A DNA stretch of 64,000 bases from positions 124,001 to 188,000 of the forward strand of contig NZ_SJXD01000025.1 of assembly GCF_004336745.1 (NCBI RefSeq), read 5' to 3'. Of this stretch, positions 51,748 through 64,000 are shown piece by piece; the stretch's first letter is position 1; each line of letters opens with the position of its first letter. Source of the stretch: Roseococcus sp. SYP-B2431 (GTDB lineage: Bacteria; Pseudomonadota; Alphaproteobacteria; Acetobacterales; Acetobacteraceae). Below the pieces are notes generated by a model. The model was not told where the DNA came from. It did no database searches and worked only from the letters and a program-made list of their open reading frames with translations. The position numbers and the translations under genes are program-made.

Positions 51748-52827
51748 TTGGGCGCTGGGCTGGACGTGCCGCTCGACAAGATTCTGGTGGGTGACTGCAT
51801 CGAGGAGCTACGCGCGCTGCCGCCGGCCTCCGTGCATGCGATCTTCGCCGATCCGCCGTACAATCTGCAGCTCCGTGGCACGCTGCACCGGCCGGACCAC
51901 AGCCTCGTCGACGCGGTGGACGACGAATGGGACCGCTTCGCGGACTACGCGACCTACGACTCCTTCACGAGGGAATGGCTCACGGAGTGCCGCCGGGTGC
52001 TGCGCAAGGACGGGACGCTCTGGCTCATCGGCAGCTATCACAACGTCTTCCGCCTTGGCACGGCGCTCCAGGATCTCGGCTTCTGGATCCTGAACGACGT
52101 CATCTGGCGCAAGGCCAACCCGATGCCGAACTTCCGGGGACGGCGCTTCACCAATGCGCATGAGACCCTGATCTGGGCGGCGCGCGGGCAGGAGGCGAAG
52201 TACCGCTTCAACTATGCCGCCATGAAGGCGCTCAACGACGACCTGCAGATGCGCAGCGACTGGTTCATTCCGCTCTGCACGGGCCATGAGCGCCTGCGTG
52301 ACAAGGCCGGCGGCAAGGTGCATCCGACCCAGAAGCCGGAAGCGCTGCTGCATCGGGTCATCCTGTCCTGCACGCAGCGCGGCGACGTGATCCTGGATCC
52401 CTTCCTCGGCTCGGGGACGACGGCAGCGGTCGCGAAGCGGCTGGGGCGCCATTTCGTCGGCATCGAGCGGGATCCGACCTATGCCGCCGCCGCCCGGGAG
52501 CGCGTCGATGCCATCCAGCCCCTCGCCGAGGAGGCGATGATGGCGACGCCCACGCGTCGCGAGCAGCCACGGATTCCCTTCGGCAACCTCGTGGAGCGCG
52601 GCCTGGTCGCGGCCGGGGAGGCACTGACCGACCGGCACCGGCGCTGGACGGCGACGGTGCTCGCCGACGGCACGGTGAGCTGCGGCACGGCGCGCGGCTC
52701 GATCCATGCAGTGGGGGCGGCGGTGCAGGAGGCGCCATCCTGCAACGGGTGGACCTTCTGGCACCTCGTCCAGCGCGACGGGACGCTGAAGCTGCTGGAC
52801 GTGTTCCGGAGCGAATTGGCGGCCTGA
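51748..52827 (+). CDS. ccrM: CcrM-type DNA adenine methyltransferase (GANTC)
   Basis: 359 aa, beta-class N6-adenine methyltransferase with catalytic DPPY (residues 35-38) N-terminal and SAM-binding DPFLGSGTTAAVAKRL near residue 220, plus the C-terminal CcrM domain (VLADGTVSCGTARGSIHAVGA). Family members methylate GANTC and time gene expression in the alphaproteobacterial cell cycle. Start TTG 51748, with AAGGAAA upstream at 51733-51739; GATTC (51725-51729), a GANTC site, lies just before it. Follows rnhB. Confidence 0.93.
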   Translation: MGAGLDVPLDKILVGDCIEELRALPPASVHAIFADPPYNLQLRGTLHRPDHSLVDAVDDEWDRFADYATYDSFTREWLTECRRVLRKDGTLWLIGSYHNVFRLGTALQDLGFWILNDVIWRKANPMPNFRGRRFTNAHETLIWAARGQEAKYRFNYAAMKALNDDLQMRSDWFIPLCTGHERLRDKAGGKVHPTQKPEALLHRVILSCTQRGDVILDPFLGSGTTAAVAKRLGRHFVGIERDPTYAAAARERVDAIQPLAEEAMMATPTRREQPRIPFGNLVERGLVAAGEALTDRHRRWTATVLADGTVSCGTARGSIHAVGAAVQEAPSCNGWTFWHLVQRDGTLKLLDVFRSELAA

Positions 52828-59167: not shown

Positions 59168-59818
59168 TTATTGGCTGGCCCACAGAATCCGGTGCATCCA
59201 CGCCACATCCGGCAGCTCGAAGCTGTAGTCGGGATGTGCGGGATTGAGGCTCGCCAGCTCGATCCGCTTCGCGCTCTGGCGCTTCAGCTCCTTCGCCATC
59301 ACCTCGCCGAGCCGTGTGCGCACCACCACGCGATCGCCCCGCCGGATGGGGGCTGCGGGCGAGACGATCACCGCGTCGCCGTCGCGGAAGACCGGCTCCA
59401 TGGAATCGCCGGAAATCTCCAGCGCATAGGCATTGGGGTCGCTGATTTCGGGCAGGCTGATCTCGTCCCAGCTCCCGCCGACGGGAAAGCCGCCATCGTC
59501 GAAGAAGCCCTCGCTGCCGGCCTGGGCGAGTCCGATCAGGGGGATGCGGCGCGAGGGGCGGGGCCCGCGCGAGAGGCTCGGCAGGGCCGCCTGGCCCGAG
59601 ACCAGCGCGGCAAAGGCCTCGATTCCCGCGCCGGTGGCCGCGAGCACCTTCGCGACGCTCTCCGTGGAGGGCCAGCGCGCGCGCCCGTCCGGCCCGATCC
59701 GTTTCGAGGGATTGAAGGCCGTCGGATCCAGCCCGGCTCGCTTGGCGAGGCCGGAGGCGGAGAGCCCGTTCTCTGCGGCCAGCGAATCGATCGCGCGCCA
59801 GATGTCATCGTGTCGCAT
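59168..59818 (-). CDS. Phage-type repressor, HTH plus S24 (LexA/CI) autopeptidase domain
   Basis: 216 aa. An N-terminal helix-turn-helix (NGLSASGLAKRAGLDPTAFN) joins a LexA/CI C-domain: cleavage Ala-Gly at 100-101 (LAQAGSEG), nucleophile Ser139 in GDSMEP and Lys176 in VMAKELKR. This arrangement is a self-cleaving repressor triggered by RecA filaments. It is not LexA itself, whose HTH is winged and different. It faces the rightward phage-like genes across a 136-base divergent region with an SOS-box match. Confidence 0.88.
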   Translation of the reverse strand: MRHDDIWRAIDSLAAENGLSASGLAKRAGLDPTAFNPSKRIGPDGRARWPSTESVAKVLAATGAGIEAFAALVSGQAALPSLSRGPRPSRRIPLIGLAQAGSEGFFDDGGFPVGGSWDEISLPEISDPNAYALEISGDSMEPVFRDGDAVIVSPAAPIRRGDRVVVRTRLGEVMAKELKRQSAKRIELASLNPAHPDYSFELPDVAWMHRILWASQ

Positions 59819-59905
59819 GGGATAGGACCATCATAGGTGTTGGTTCACGGTGCAATAGGAAAATGTTGCTTGTAGCGCTTGCAAGTCTCTCAACCGGGGG
59901 TTTAT

Positions 59906-59930
59906 GTTCGCTAAATGTTCTCATTCGTTC
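59906..59930. promoter_or_regulatory. Alphaproteobacterial SOS-box-like repeats between the repressor and the first phage gene
   Basis: GTTC (59906-59909), 7 bases, GTTC (59917-59920) fits the alphaproteobacterial LexA box GTTC-N7-GTTC exactly. A third GTTC (59927-59930) follows with 6 bases between. It lies 24 bases before the ATG at 59955. Binding by LexA or the S24 repressor is inferred. Confidence 0.6.
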
Positions 59931-59954
59931 TCGCCTGAAAGGAACCGAGCGTCC

Positions 59955-60389
59955 ATGTCCTCCTCCCCCCGTCCCAACCACCCCCGCATCCTCTCCAGCC
60001 TGGCAAAGACCGAGCCCTTCACCTCCGCTGAGGAGGCCTGGTTCTGGACCATGTCGGCCCTCGTCGCCCGGCGCGAGGGCGCGCGCATCGCCGCGGGCAA
60101 GGGTCTCGCCCAGCGCCCCTGCGAGCCCGACGACGTGATCAAGTGCCTCGACCGGCTGTACCGCCAGCGCCGTATCGAGCTGGCCCATGCGCGCATCCTG
60201 CGGATCTGGGGCGAGCGTGGCACTGCGCCCAGCGCGCACCACGCCCAGGAGCGCGGCGACTTCCGCCTCTGGCGCGAGGCGATGAACCGGCTGGAATGGC
60301 CGCTGCGGGTGAAGGGCATCGTCGCCGGCGCGCCGCGCATGGAGCAGGAGACGGCGGAGATCCTGCCTTTTCGGGGCAGCCGCGCGTGA
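59955..60389 (+). CDS. Small unknown protein, phage-module early gene
   Basis: 144 aa from ATG 59955 (MSSSPRPNHPRILSSLAKTE). Helical: EAWFWTMSALVARREGARIA, DDVIKCLDRLYRQRRIELAHARIL, RLWREAMNRLEWPL. The DVIKCLDRLYRQ helix plus basic surface is compatible with a DNA-binding role, but I do not recognise the family. First rightward gene, right after the SOS-like repeats; its stop overlaps the next start by 3 bases. Confidence 0.7.
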   Translation: MSSSPRPNHPRILSSLAKTEPFTSAEEAWFWTMSALVARREGARIAAGKGLAQRPCEPDDVIKCLDRLYRQRRIELAHARILRIWGERGTAPSAHHAQERGDFRLWREAMNRLEWPLRVKGIVAGAPRMEQETAEILPFRGSRA

Positions 60390-60847
60390 CGGCGGTCGCG
60401 CCGGCCGCGCGGCCGGCCCATCGCCGGCACCTCGGTGGGCAGCGCGCCTGGATCGTCTTCGGCGGGCGCGCGGATCACCTCTGGCAGCGCCTGCTCCGGC
60501 GCGGGTTCCGGCACTGCTTTGCCGCGCTGGAGGATCCGCACGGCTGGACCGTTCTGGACCCGCTCACCGGCCGCCTGCTGGTCGCGCGGCTCGAGGTTCC
60601 GGCGGGCTTCGACCTGCCGGGCTTCTACCGCCGCGCCGGGTTGCTGCCGGTTGGCCCCTTTCCCCTGGAGGAACCGGTGCTGGGCCGCGGGCTGCGGGGC
60701 GCGCCGTTCAGCTGCGTGGCCGTCTGCCGGGCCGTGCTCGGTCCGCACGCGCCCTTTGCCATGACGCCGCATGGGCTTTTCCACGCCCTCGTCCAGTCTC
60801 ATGAATCTAGGAAAAAATACTTGACTTCTTTCTCCGTTCCAACCTAG
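60386..60847 (+). CDS. Small unknown protein, phage-module
   Basis: 153 aa from GTG 60386, overlapping the preceding stop as GTGA. Arg-rich N-terminus (AARPAHRRHLGGQRAWIVF), then FGGRADHLWQRLLRRGFRHC and DPLTGRLLVARLEVP, and a central CVAVCRAVLG with two Cys. Resembles small phage-associated proteins with a cysteine near an active-site-like VAVC; function unknown. Its last 30 bases overlap a promoter-like sequence. Confidence 0.65.
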   Translation: MTAVAPAARPAHRRHLGGQRAWIVFGGRADHLWQRLLRRGFRHCFAALEDPHGWTVLDPLTGRLLVARLEVPAGFDLPGFYRRAGLLPVGPFPLEEPVLGRGLRGAPFSCVAVCRAVLGPHAPFAMTPHGLFHALVQSHESRKKYLTSFSVPT

Positions 60848-60944
60848 AACACTCAGGCCAAGGGGCGAATTGCGTCCCGAGGCTCTCCTCTCCCGACCGA
60901 CTGGCTTCCAGAAGGCCCGGCTCCCCTAGGAGCCGGGCCTTTTG
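60821..60944 (+). ncRNA. Candidate short transcript: sigma70-like promoter followed by an intrinsic terminator
   Basis: TTGACT (60821-60826), 18-base spacer, TAGAAC (60845-60850), then about 60 bases and a strong intrinsic terminator: AGGCCCGGCTCC (60913-60924), CCTA loop, GGAGCCGGGCCT (60929-60940), followed by TTT. A transcript of roughly 85 bases would result. It might be a small RNA or an attenuating leader for the portal-capsid genes downstream. Promoter and terminator are seen; the RNA itself is inferred. Confidence 0.5.
60913..60943 (+). terminator. Strong intrinsic terminator upstream of the structural genes
   Basis: 12-bp perfect stem AGGCCCGGCTCC / GGAGCCGGGCCT with a CCTA loop and TTT tail. 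It stops rightward transcription from the two small genes before the phage structural block. Confidence 0.85.
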
Positions 60945-61055
60945 CGTCTGTGCCGCCGCGCTCCCGCCGGATTGATTTCCGGCGGCCGCGCTTTTGTTCG
61001 GCATGCCGGAAGGGACGGGAGGCCAATCCCAGGATTCCCGAAGGAGTTGCCGCGC

Positions 61056-61289
61056 ATGGCAGGCCTGTTCCGCGTCCCGAAGCCGGTAGTCGTCCCACCG
61101 CCCGCACCGCCGCCGACGCCGACGGAGACCGCCACCGCCGCCAGCCGTGATGCCGAAGCCGAGGCGGCCCGGACCGAAAGCCGTGCCCGCGCAGGGGGCG
61201 GCATCGCGGGAACGGTCGCGACCTCGGCCCGCGGCGTGCTGACGGCGGCGCCCTTCCCCGCCGCGCGCAAGTCGCTGCTCGGGGAGTGA
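61056..61289 (+). CDS. Short phage protein, gp7.3-like
   Basis: 77 aa from ATG 61056, with AAGGAG at 61041-61046. Pro-rich start (LFRVPKPVVVPPPAPPPTPT), then ARTESRARAGG and a closing RGVLTAAPFPAARKSLLGE. The TESxRARAGG element and terminal ARKSLLG recall the small protein encoded just before the portal in podoviruses (T7 gp7.3-like) and in many prophages. Its stop overlaps a possible portal start. Confidence 0.68.
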   Translation: MAGLFRVPKPVVVPPPAPPPTPTETATAASRDAEAEAARTESRARAGGGIAGTVATSARGVLTAAPFPAARKSLLGE

Positions 61290-61294
61290 CGCAC

Positions 61295-62725
61295 ATGACC
61301 CCGCAGCAGATCCTCACGCGCCATGACCGCGCCGTCGCGCGCCGCCGCCCGCATGAAATCAGCTGGGCCGACGCCTATTCCCATGTCCTGCCCTCGCCGG
61401 GCGAAGCGCCGGCCCTCTACGACGCCACCGCCGCCGATGCCGCCGAGCAGCTGGCCGCCTCGCTGCTCGCCGAGCTGACGCCGCCCTGGTCGCGCTGGTT
61501 CGGCCTGGCACCCGCCTGCGCCATCGCCGATACCGAGGAGGGTCAGGCCGCCGCCTTCGCGCTGGAGGGCGCGGCCGACATCCTGCAGTCGCAGCTCGAC
61601 CGGTCCAACTTCGCGGTCGAGATGCACCAGGCCTTCCTCGACCTCGTCATCACCGGCACGGGCATCATGCTCGTCGAGGAGGCGCCGCCCGGCGAGGCCT
61701 CCGCGCTGCGCTTCTCCGCGGTGCCGGTCCGCACCGCCATCCTGGAGGAGGGGACGACGGGCCGGCTCGACACCGTCTTCCGCGAGGCGCGCATGACCAC
61801 CGCCGAGGTGCTGCGCCGCTTCCCCTTCGCCGAACTGCCCCAGGCCATGATCCGCGAGGGGGAAGCCGAAGAAGCCGATCCGCCGAAGCACCGCCTGATC
61901 GAGGCCATCTGGCCCGACGGCACCGGTCATCGCTACGCCGCCGTGCTCGACGCCGCCGCGCTGAAGGCGCCGCTCCTCGTCGCACAGGGCCGCTTCGCCG
62001 ATGGTCCCTTCATCGCCTTCCGCTGGCTGAAGGCTCCCGGCGAGGTCTATGGCCGCGGCCCGGTCGTCAAGGCACTCCCGGACATTCGCACGGCCAACCG
62101 CGTCGTCGAGCTGGTGCTGAAGAACGCCTCCATCGCGGCGACCGGCATCTGGCAGGCGGAGGACGACGGCGTGCTGAACCCCGCCACCGTGCAGCTCGTG
62201 CCGGGCGCGATCATTCCGAAGGCCCCGGGCAGCGCGGGCCTGACCCCGCTCGCCGCGCCCGGCAATTTCGACGTCTCGCAGCTCGTGCTGAACGACCTGC
62301 GCGCGCGCATCCGCTCGGCCCTGCTGGTCGACCGGCTCGGCACGCCGAAGGATGCGCGGATGACCGCGACCGAGGTGCTGGAGCGCAGCGCGGAGACGGC
62401 GCGGCTGCTCGGCGCCACCTATGGACGATTGCAGTCGGAGCTGCTGACCCCGCTGGTCGCGCGCAGCCTTGCGATCCTCGCGCGGCGCGGCGAGATCCCG
62501 CCGGTGCTGCTTGACCAGGGGCGCGTGGCGCTGCGCTACGAGAGCCCGCTGGCCCGCGTGCAGGGCCGCGCCGACGCGGCCAATACGCTGCTCTTCCTCG
62601 AGGCCGTCGCGAAGATGGGCGAGGCTGCCGCGTCCCAGGTCGACGCGCCGGCGGCCGCGCGCTGGCTCGCCCGCACGCTCGGCGCGCCCGCCGAAATCCT
62701 CGTCCCCGTTCCCAGCCCGGAGTGA
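61295..62725 (+). CDS. Phage portal (head-to-tail connector) protein, podovirus type
   Basis: 476 aa. PF12236-like head-tail connector: TPQQILTRHDRAVARRRPHE, YDATAADAAEQLAASLLAEL, FLDLVITGTGIMLVEEA, and YGRGPVVKALPDIRTANRVVEL, all hallmarks of T7-like portal proteins. It forms the dodecameric DNA gate in the capsid. Start ATG 61295 has GGGGAG 8 bases before; GTG 61286, overlapping the preceding stop, is the alternative. The scaffold gene follows immediately. Confidence 0.88.
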   Translation: MTPQQILTRHDRAVARRRPHEISWADAYSHVLPSPGEAPALYDATAADAAEQLAASLLAELTPPWSRWFGLAPACAIADTEEGQAAAFALEGAADILQSQLDRSNFAVEMHQAFLDLVITGTGIMLVEEAPPGEASALRFSAVPVRTAILEEGTTGRLDTVFREARMTTAEVLRRFPFAELPQAMIREGEAEEADPPKHRLIEAIWPDGTGHRYAAVLDAAALKAPLLVAQGRFADGPFIAFRWLKAPGEVYGRGPVVKALPDIRTANRVVELVLKNASIAATGIWQAEDDGVLNPATVQLVPGAIIPKAPGSAGLTPLAAPGNFDVSQLVLNDLRARIRSALLVDRLGTPKDARMTATEVLERSAETARLLGATYGRLQSELLTPLVARSLAILARRGEIPPVLLDQGRVALRYESPLARVQGRADAANTLLFLEAVAKMGEAAASQVDAPAAARWLARTLGAPAEILVPVPSPE

Positions 62726-62733
62726 TGCCCCAC

Positions 62734-63450
62734 ATGTCCGACAACCTGCTGCAGGCCGCGCCCGAACCCACCCGCCCGTCCGACATCCCGGAAAAATTCT
62801 GGGACAGCGAGAACGGCGCGATGCGCGTGGACGCGCTGCTGAAAAGCTACCGAGAGCTGGAGCGGCGCATGTCGCATCGCCTGGCGCCGCCGACCGACGC
62901 CTCGGACGACGAGGAGCGCCGCCGCTGGCGCGAGATGATGAACATCCCCGACAGCCCCGAAGGCTATCACGTCGAGGCAAAGCACGAGCTCTGCGGCCCA
63001 GATCCGGCGATCAATGCGCGGCTGCACGCGGCCGGCTTCTCCTGCGATCAGGTGCAGCTCGTCTATGATCTCGCCTCCGAGCGGCTGCTGCCGCTGATCG
63101 CCGAGGCGGCGCAGCAGTTCGAGGCCGACCGCCAGGCGGAGAAGCTGCGCGAGCATTTCGGCGGCGACGAGCGCTTCCGCCGCGTGGCCGCACAGCTCTC
63201 CGCCTGGGGCCGCGCCAATCTGCCGCCCGCCGTCTTCGAGGCGCTGGCCACGACTTCGGAGGGCGTGCTGGCGCTGGAACGCATGATGCAGGGCAACGAG
63301 CCCGGACTGGCGCGCGACGCTGCGCCGCCGGCCACGATGGACGAGGGCGAGCTGCGCCGGATGATGCGCGACCCGCGCTACTGGCGTCAGCGCGAGCCGG
63401 AATTCGTGAAGCGCGTGACCGAGGGCTTCCGCAAGCTCGTGAACGGCTGA
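62734..63450 (+). CDS. Phage capsid scaffold/assembly protein
   Basis: 238 aa, mostly helical and charged. SDIPEKFWDSENGAMRVDAL, SYRELERRMSHRL and MNIPDSPEGYHVEAKH match the T7-like scaffold opening, where a conserved PEKFWD occurs; the C-terminus ends with REPEFVKRVTEGFRKLVNG. Scaffold guides capsid folding and leaves the head. Start ATG 62734 (ATG 62725 is possible but too near the GGAG). Lies between portal and capsid as in T7. Confidence 0.85.
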   Translation: MSDNLLQAAPEPTRPSDIPEKFWDSENGAMRVDALLKSYRELERRMSHRLAPPTDASDDEERRRWREMMNIPDSPEGYHVEAKHELCGPDPAINARLHAAGFSCDQVQLVYDLASERLLPLIAEAAQQFEADRQAEKLREHFGGDERFRRVAAQLSAWGRANLPPAVFEALATTSEGVLALERMMQGNEPGLARDAAPPATMDEGELRRMMRDPRYWRQREPEFVKRVTEGFRKLVNG

Positions 63451-63721
63451 TGCCGGATTGATCCGGGGCGAGTGACGCGCTGCCGATCGCGCGCCCGCCC
63501 CGTGAGGCCGCCGGTTCTCCTCCTCCCCGGAACCGGCGGCCCGCGCCCGCCGCCGCAGCCTCGGCCATGCCCCCTCGGACAGGCCCTGGCGCGCGGCGGG
63601 CGCGCACCCTTTCGTCCGCGCAGAACCCGGCTTCCGGGCGCGTGGCGCCGGCACGATGCCGCGGCCCGTCCCGGTCAACCGCGCGCCGTGTCTTCCCGAC
63701 AATCCATCTGGAGAACGACAG
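63451..63721 (+). other. Leader between scaffold and capsid genes
   Basis: 271 bases without a gene. It has a strong hairpin, GCCGCCGGTTC (63507-63517) with GAACCGGCGGC (63530-63540), and a GGAGAACGACAG stretch before the capsid ATG. Possibly a regulated leader boosting capsid expression (inference). Confidence 0.45.
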
Positions 63722-64000
63722 ATGTCCGGTTCCATCGACCAGGCTTTCGTCAAGCAGTACCAGGCCGAGGTTCACCTCGCCTATCAGCGGCAGGGCTCCA
63801 AGCTGCGCCCCACCGTGCGCAGCAAGTCCGACATCAAGGGCGCCAGCACCGTCTTCCAGCGCGTCGGTCGCGGCACCGCGACCTCCAAGTCGCGCAACGG
63901 CGTGGTGCCGGTGATGAACCTCGAATACTCCGCGGTGGAATGCTTCCTCGCCGACCATTACGCCGGCGACTGGATCGACAAGCTCGACGAGCTGAAGACC
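63722..64000 (+). CDS. Phage major capsid protein, N-terminal part (3' truncated by window)
   Basis: 93 codons seen, starting MSGSIDQAFVKQYQAEVHLA, then AYQRQGSKLRPTVRSKSDIK and AVECFLADHYAGDWIDKLDEL. This matches the N-arm of T7-like major capsid proteins (HK97 fold family). The gene continues beyond the window. GAGAACGACAG precedes ATG 63722. Confidence 0.82.
   Translation, partial: MSGSIDQAFVKQYQAEVHLAYQRQGSKLRPTVRSKSDIKGASTVFQRVGRGTATSKSRNGVVPVMNLEYSAVECFLADHYAGDWIDKLDELKT

Follow-up and report, generated by a model that had tools for sequence, protein, structure and literature searches.

Gene transfer agents (GTAs) are known in few lineages. RcGTA derives from a siphovirus, and its genes form a compact head-tail cluster that has no replication genes, can occupy several loci, has descended vertically in Alphaproteobacteria and is kept under purifying selection. 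Apart from the origin, these features recur in an element that we describe here from Roseococcus sp. SYP-B2431 (Acetobacteraceae; 4.7 Mb draft genome, G000). The element begins in a stretch of 64,000 nucleotides, hereafter the window (positions 124001-188000 of contig C23, NZ_SJXD01000025.1; contig coordinate = window coordinate + 124000), where T7-like portal, scaffold and capsid genes diverge from an S24 repressor. We read it as a domesticated podovirus, passed down vertically from before the separation of several alphaproteobacterial families and most likely working as a GTA, and we put the probability of this reading at roughly 0.75. It differs from RcGTA, which is siphovirus-derived and marked by the GTA_TIM domain (PF13547), in having no GTA_TIM; the whole Roseococcus genome gave no match to that profile. 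RcGTA is placed in the Rhodogtaviriformidae in PMC9662315, and Table 3 of Kogay 2019 (PMC6821227) counts 0 RcGTA-like clusters in 62 Acetobacterales genomes and none in the Azospirillales or Rhodospirillales.

With T7 and the Autographiviridae the element shares the order portal, scaffold, capsid, tail A, as seen in the T7 record, and the families PF12236 and PF05396. Tail B also stands at its T7 place. Unlike T7, the element has an S24 repressor and a LexA box, and its capsid is nearest to phrog_3437, whereas that of T7 is nearest to phrog_267; no phage RNA polymerase or replication gene is among the annotated genes of the cluster (the polymerase was not searched for in the rest of the genome). 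Of the named free phages, Pelagibacter phage EXVC031P Hodr (OQ414635) comes nearest in its capsid (47%; portal 37% over 79%); it is an isolated phage with a 34 kb record and falls outside the element clade in the capsid tree. No podovirus-derived GTA of Alphaproteobacteria was found in the open-access papers searched, preprints and most subscription papers lying outside that search. George et al. 2022, on GTAs in endosymbionts, reportedly deals with RcGTA-type genes. The particles of Azospirillum are said to have been described as siphovirus-like, and their connection to the present element is only a lead. According to PMC3899980 they are induced by mitomycin C and hold ~10 kb of random host DNA. 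They are thus GTA-like, DNA-damage-induced and from an alphaproteobacterial order without RcGTA-like clusters; the genes behind them are unsettled, the authors having proposed another region with RcGTA-like order (PMC3899980). FpGTA of Faecalibacterium, as described in PMC12946183, likewise has portal, scaffold, capsid, TerL (large terminase) and lysis genes, and in one strain these lie in two operons ~125 kb apart; its host is outside Proteobacteria, its particles and their DNA have been observed whereas the present element is known from genes alone, and the likeness is one of description.

A preliminary description, made from the window only, had placed portal, scaffold and capsid in the T7 gp8-gp9-gp10 order behind a divergent S24 repressor with an SOS box. 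Profile searches bore out the homology of portal (PF12236) and capsid (PF19821), of the scaffold between them (PF05396) and of the repressor (PF00717), and comparison with the T7 record bore out the order. Examining the contig rightwards to C23:240000, as the description had proposed, we found that the module passes the window end and reaches C23:197994, with the tail, terminase and lysis genes that were to be looked for there. The full order is S24 repressor (divergent), u1, u2, u3, portal, scaffold, capsid, tail A, tail B, a gp14-like gene, tail spike, a small gene, TerL, a holin-like gene and a SleB hydrolase. The nearest named records by portal are from Rubritepida and Roseococcus (86-94% identical), although records closest to the genome itself may have been omitted.

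A portal search over 299 Acetobacteraceae genomes gave matches in 81, and 78 loci were fetched (10 fragmentary matches in six genomes were left unfetched, and two rows for genome G248 represent one fetched locus). The element is present at 69 of these loci, in 69 genomes, and the other nine, holding unrelated portals, were set aside. All 13 core genes occur in 42 of the 55 element loci of at least 19 kb, and all 42 have the same order, a comparison that the preliminary description had suggested; the element measures a median of 13.7 kb between repressor and SleB (52 family loci). The flank is conserved as well. In Roseococcus a GST gene is followed by DUF952, pyrD and a HAD-family gene, the last three confirmed as to family, and at least one of DUF952, pyrD or HAD lies downstream in 45 of the 55 long loci.

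The earlier observation that no integrase or attachment site is visible holds well beyond the window. No integrase (PF00589) was found from the left end of the contig to 204 kb right of the cluster, the nearest lying at C23:401860 (relatives' loci were not searched); no tRNA gene lies in C23:124001-230000; and no direct repeat shared by the two 3 kb flanks exceeds 13 bases, the shuffled median also being 13. An ordinary prophage was rejected on the lack of a linked integrase, the conserved neighbours and the split loci described below. A plasmid-borne element was likewise rejected, as 72,556 plasmid records contained no capsid match.

Across the class, a capsid profile search of 385 genomes gave matches in 87, of which 58 (Roseococcus included) from 35 families are strong (E<=1.3e-105), 57 of them with a single match. 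In a sample of the phylum (n=398) the six matches at E<1e-100 are all from the same class, and three weak ones fall outside it. Gene content was examined in Roseococcus and 40 of the other strong genomes. Gene order is retained in most of these 40 loci, and pyrD is present in 13, from nine families (f51, f97, f40, f16, f93, f105, f128, f62 and f28), in two of which (f105, f62) it lies on the other side or is inverted. In 14 of the 40 genomes the fetched stretch contains no portal; of these, 13 were searched genome-wide (G502 was not) and all 13 have a match elsewhere, in two pieces in G348 and G651, partial in G359 and of lower score in G493. Portal and capsid share a contig, 11 kb to 1.25 Mb apart, in G596, G471, G337, G514, G673 and G348. 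In the four split genomes checked (G471, G402, G596 and G337) the portal at the second locus is preceded by the repressor, u2 and u3, and in three of these genomes also by u1. Dispersal of the genes over several loci is seen in other genomes of the class; the Roseococcus cluster is unsplit. Four genomes of ~0.9 Mb (G484, G654, G365, G577; loci L322, L324, L325, L323) keep rearranged genes of the element, which are a costly load for genomes of that size.

Descent follows the host closely. Over 52 genomes, the joint distances of TerL, capsid and the two tail proteins A and B correlate with RpoB distances at r=0.911, against a maximum of 0.389 in 1000 permutations (G175, G266, G271 and G651, each with one of the four genes missing after filtering, are omitted from the tree). 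The capsid evolves at 1.07 times the rate of RpoB. For single genes of the element r is 0.77-0.89 with rates of 1.17-2.90 (24 genomes; portal and scaffold on 16), and the host control pyrD gives r=0.852 at 2.41 times the RpoB rate (24 genomes). By correlation and rate, then, the element behaves as a housekeeping gene. The ratio of non-synonymous to synonymous substitution (dN/dS) is 0.00-0.48 in the 12 closest pairs and mostly below 0.3; three gene-pair cells were left out of this table because the aligned stretch had a stop, either real or from alignment past the gene end. A capsid tree (114 tips, root on a Vibrio phage) places every phage, and three other family copies as well, outside the element clade. 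Domestication is well supported, as is a largely vertical inheritance, and the long residence that the preliminary description had read from base composition is backed, well beyond GC content, by vertical descent across families and by the split loci. One contig catalogued as 'Bacteriophage sp.' (MT838907, L419; 5 kb, human faeces) does group inside the element clade by capsid, and may for that reason be bacterial chromosome.

The control region points to regulation by DNA damage. The SOS box noticed earlier is conserved: a motif of the form GTTC-N7-GTTC, which we take to be the alphaproteobacterial LexA box, stands ahead of the late genes in 52 of the 66 homologous regions (without Roseococcus, in 51 of 65 loci of the family; L068, whose repressor lies 3.5 kb off, is not counted). 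In 100 plain base shuffles the mean is 0.3 and the maximum 3 (of 66), and in random windows of the same length from the same loci 0.81 and 6 (of 65). The whole Roseococcus genome has 55 motifs of this type and 25 of the reversed pattern; one of the 55 lies upstream of recA, 123 bases outside the RecA match and oppositely oriented to that gene. Among the split genomes, G596 and G673 have LexA boxes ahead of the capsid unit, and G337 in the gap between repressor and u1; G596 has two more between u2 and portal, and none lies in the portal-side stretch of G471 or G402. Between repressor and LexA box (window 59819-59905) the motifs CAATAGG and CCTAGG are conserved in relatives, found in 46 and 49 of the 66 regions against shuffled means of 1.2 and 4.6; CAATAGG and related motifs are likely candidates for the repressor operators. 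In some loci that lack a LexA box, ATAGGTGTTGACGCCTAT overlies a -35-like sequence. The repressor itself retains Ala100-Gly101, Ser139 and Lys176 in 66 of 66 proteins, presumably the cleavage site and the catalytic pair.

These features suggest a mechanism. LexA and the S24 repressor would hold the late operon silent until DNA damage activates RecA and both repressors are inactivated; u1 may then aid transcription of the late operon. Podovirus-type heads with short tails would be assembled and loaded with DNA by TerL, and cell lysis would fall to the holin-like and SleB proteins. Of this scheme, we infer from the gene set that particles form, package DNA and deliver it, as well as what u1, u2 and the holin-like gene do. 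At the level of genes the hallmarks of a GTA are present: phage-derived head, tail, packaging and lysis genes in the chromosome, co-evolution with the host, slow evolution and purifying selection. With no integrase or replication gene in the cluster, and with its parts widely separated in some genomes, the particles would hardly multiply themselves and would be expected to contain mostly host DNA. Gene transfer is the most likely function, since packaging, head, tail and lysis machinery is kept under selection without means to replicate. Of the three options that the preliminary description had offered, the domesticated, GTA-like particle is thus favoured over the cryptic prophage and the temperate podovirus, and the best reading is an SOS-controlled, podovirus-derived GTA or similar particle that would package and transfer DNA.

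Several observations weigh against this reading. The element is known from its genes, and no particle, packaged DNA or transfer has been observed. No strong capsid match is present in 327 of the 385 class genomes. Only 21 of 49 splits are common to the element and RpoB trees, and of 33 strong splits in the element tree 10 contradict strong ones in the RpoB tree, which points to horizontal exchange in some cases or to error in the trees. The capsid clade is set apart from phages with a support of 0.66, and PMC10386132 describes podoviral structural modules that can pass vertically without domestication. Outside Acetobacteraceae, a LexA box is found in only 4 of 18 repressor-first loci. Two copies from the same genus (G216, G248) have internal deletions and a third genome of that genus (G124) has lost the portal, which makes the element dispensable; the loss in G124 (L421) looks secondary, because the holin-like and SleB genes are retained there beside DUF952-pyrD.

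The main rival on function is a domesticated particle for killing or colony control, similar to PBSX, which would package DNA and kill relatives while delivering no useful DNA. The tail spike, the lysis genes and SOS control would fit such a particle, which we nevertheless consider unlikely, since a complete portal-tail-TerL set with conserved catalytic residues is retained and the rate of evolution of the tail tube proteins does not exceed that of portal and scaffold; neither point is decisive. In TerL, nine of ten tested positions, whose roles we assume from terminase biology, show no variation among the ungapped sequences (59 or 60); the tenth, T56, is T or S.

Slightly less likely again is a live temperate podovirus lineage that has been mostly vertical by chance and draws on an unlinked integrase or helper functions. 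It would account for the S24 repressor and for purifying selection on virion, packaging and lysis genes, and the vertical descent of podoviral structure modules reported in PMC10386132 sets a precedent. Such a lineage is hard to square with the long integrase-free stretch of contig, a cluster without an annotated replication gene, conserved chromosomal neighbours, portal and capsid genes up to 1.25 Mb apart and the lack of any capsid match in the plasmid collection. The relatives of the element in IMG/VR argue the same way: the best 80 of 405 (L209-L288) are all on contigs of at most 16,225 bases, many of 12-14 kb, apparently catalogued as viral. A slowly decaying, functionless prophage remnant, to which the deletions in G216 and G248, the fragments in other genomes and the portal loss in G124 would lend themselves, is very improbable given the low dN/dS, on which simple decay was rejected, the complete clusters in 42 of 55 long loci and a capsid about as slow as RpoB; selection opposes decay for most lineages, and only those with broken copies could fit.

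Of the 385 class genomes (the sample used for the capsid, judging by genome handles), 36 have GTA_TIM, and none of these is among the 58 with the element, an overlap of 5.4 being expected (hypergeometric P(0)=0.002, uncorrected for phylogeny). One family, f93, has members in both sets, through a weak GTA_TIM match (E 9.5e-8). The purpose of the particle is probably to carry fragments of the host's DNA between cells, and the genomes that have it are ones in which no classical GTA was found. A broader proposition, which we hold at even odds, is that Alphaproteobacteria have two ancient, independently domesticated and mutually replacing GTAs, the siphovirus-derived RcGTA and the present podovirus-derived type, the latter under SOS control at least in Acetobacteraceae, taken up before the divergence of many families (35 in one sample) and surviving even in 0.9 Mb genomes. 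If our reading is true, this would be a second, independent GTA domestication within the same class, spread over 35 sampled families; particle release would be tied to DNA damage, and the element would offer a natural comparison for why bacteria keep such machines. The idea is testable at once, because relatives exist on short IMG/VR contigs and in named type strains.

Table 1 Features of the module in Roseococcus sp. SYP-B2431. Positions are those of the window, or of the contig where prefixed C23.
Feature	Position	Strand	Match or remark
S24-family self-cleaving repressor (rep)	59168..59818	-	PF00717, E 8.8e-22
Control region between rep and late genes	59819..59954	.	CAATAGG, CCTAGG and related motifs
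LexA (SOS) box GTTCGCTAAATGTTC	59906..59920	+	type GTTC-N7-GTTC
u1, 144-aa helical protein	59955..60389	+	unknown
u2, 153-aa protein	60386..60847	+	conserved His43, Cys110
u3, 77-aa protein in place of T7 gp7.3	61056..61289	+	phrog_831
Portal (head-to-tail connector)	61304..62725	+	PF12236, 410.8 bits, E 8.5e-123
Capsid scaffold	62734..63450	+	PF05396, 49.3 bits, E 9.9e-13
Major capsid protein	63722..64000 in window, ending C23:188555	+	PF19821, E 2.7e-77; phrog_3437
Tail A	C23:188737-189306		phrog_394
Tail B	C23:189311-191191		phrog_376
gp14-like internal virion protein	C23:191191-191631		phrog_418, E 1.3e-4
Tail spike	C23:191703-193982		T7-tail-like N-terminus PF03906 and pectate-lyase-like part PF12708, both below cut-off
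Small gene in place of small terminase	C23:193979-194308		phrog_31793, unknown function
TerL (large terminase)	C23:194286-195710		phrog_38, 7.9e-79
NicO metal (nickel/cobalt) transporter insert	C23:195785-196918 (L003:5785-6918)		PF03824; between TerL and holin-like gene
Holin-like gene	C23:197210-197512		phrog_29007, unknown function
SleB-type cell wall hydrolase	C23:197512-197994		PF07486, below cut-off

Among the individual genes (Table 1), the portal profile finds the solved portal structure 6r21 (E 2.4e-16), which we take to be the T7 portal. The gene ahead of it, u3, had been called gp7.3-like. This name is not upheld: T7 gp7.3 matches phrog_1320 and scores 4.6 bits with the u3 profile, and, as the profiles do not support homology, the likeness is one of position and size.

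Neither u1 nor u2 of the window has a Pfam match at E 0.1, and a set of 21 u2 members has none in Pfam or PHROGs. For u1, PHROGs searches with 25 members returned weak matches to families of no known function (phrog_15782 in five, phrog_27202 in three, phrog_9083 in one; best E 0.00062), and no convincing sequence match was found in the PDB (best E 0.25). Foldseek returned nothing at E 0.001 for either protein. Structural hints are weak, given that none of these sources gave anything convincing; u1 may possibly be a late antiterminator and u2 possibly a permuted papain/NlpC-like cysteine hydrolase. The holin-like role is suggested by position.

The NicO gene was not found by tblastn in any of the 78 fetched family loci. 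Between it and the holin-like gene is a 73-aa open frame on the minus strand (L003:6943-7164) with no Pfam match.

The nine loci set aside in the family search (L036-L039, L041, L044 and L110-L112) have PF12236 portals 23-34% identical, in other gene contexts, and are probably true prophages or other podoviral elements. Elsewhere in the window, at 51748-52827, an open frame gives the impression, by sequence, of a DNA methyltransferase.

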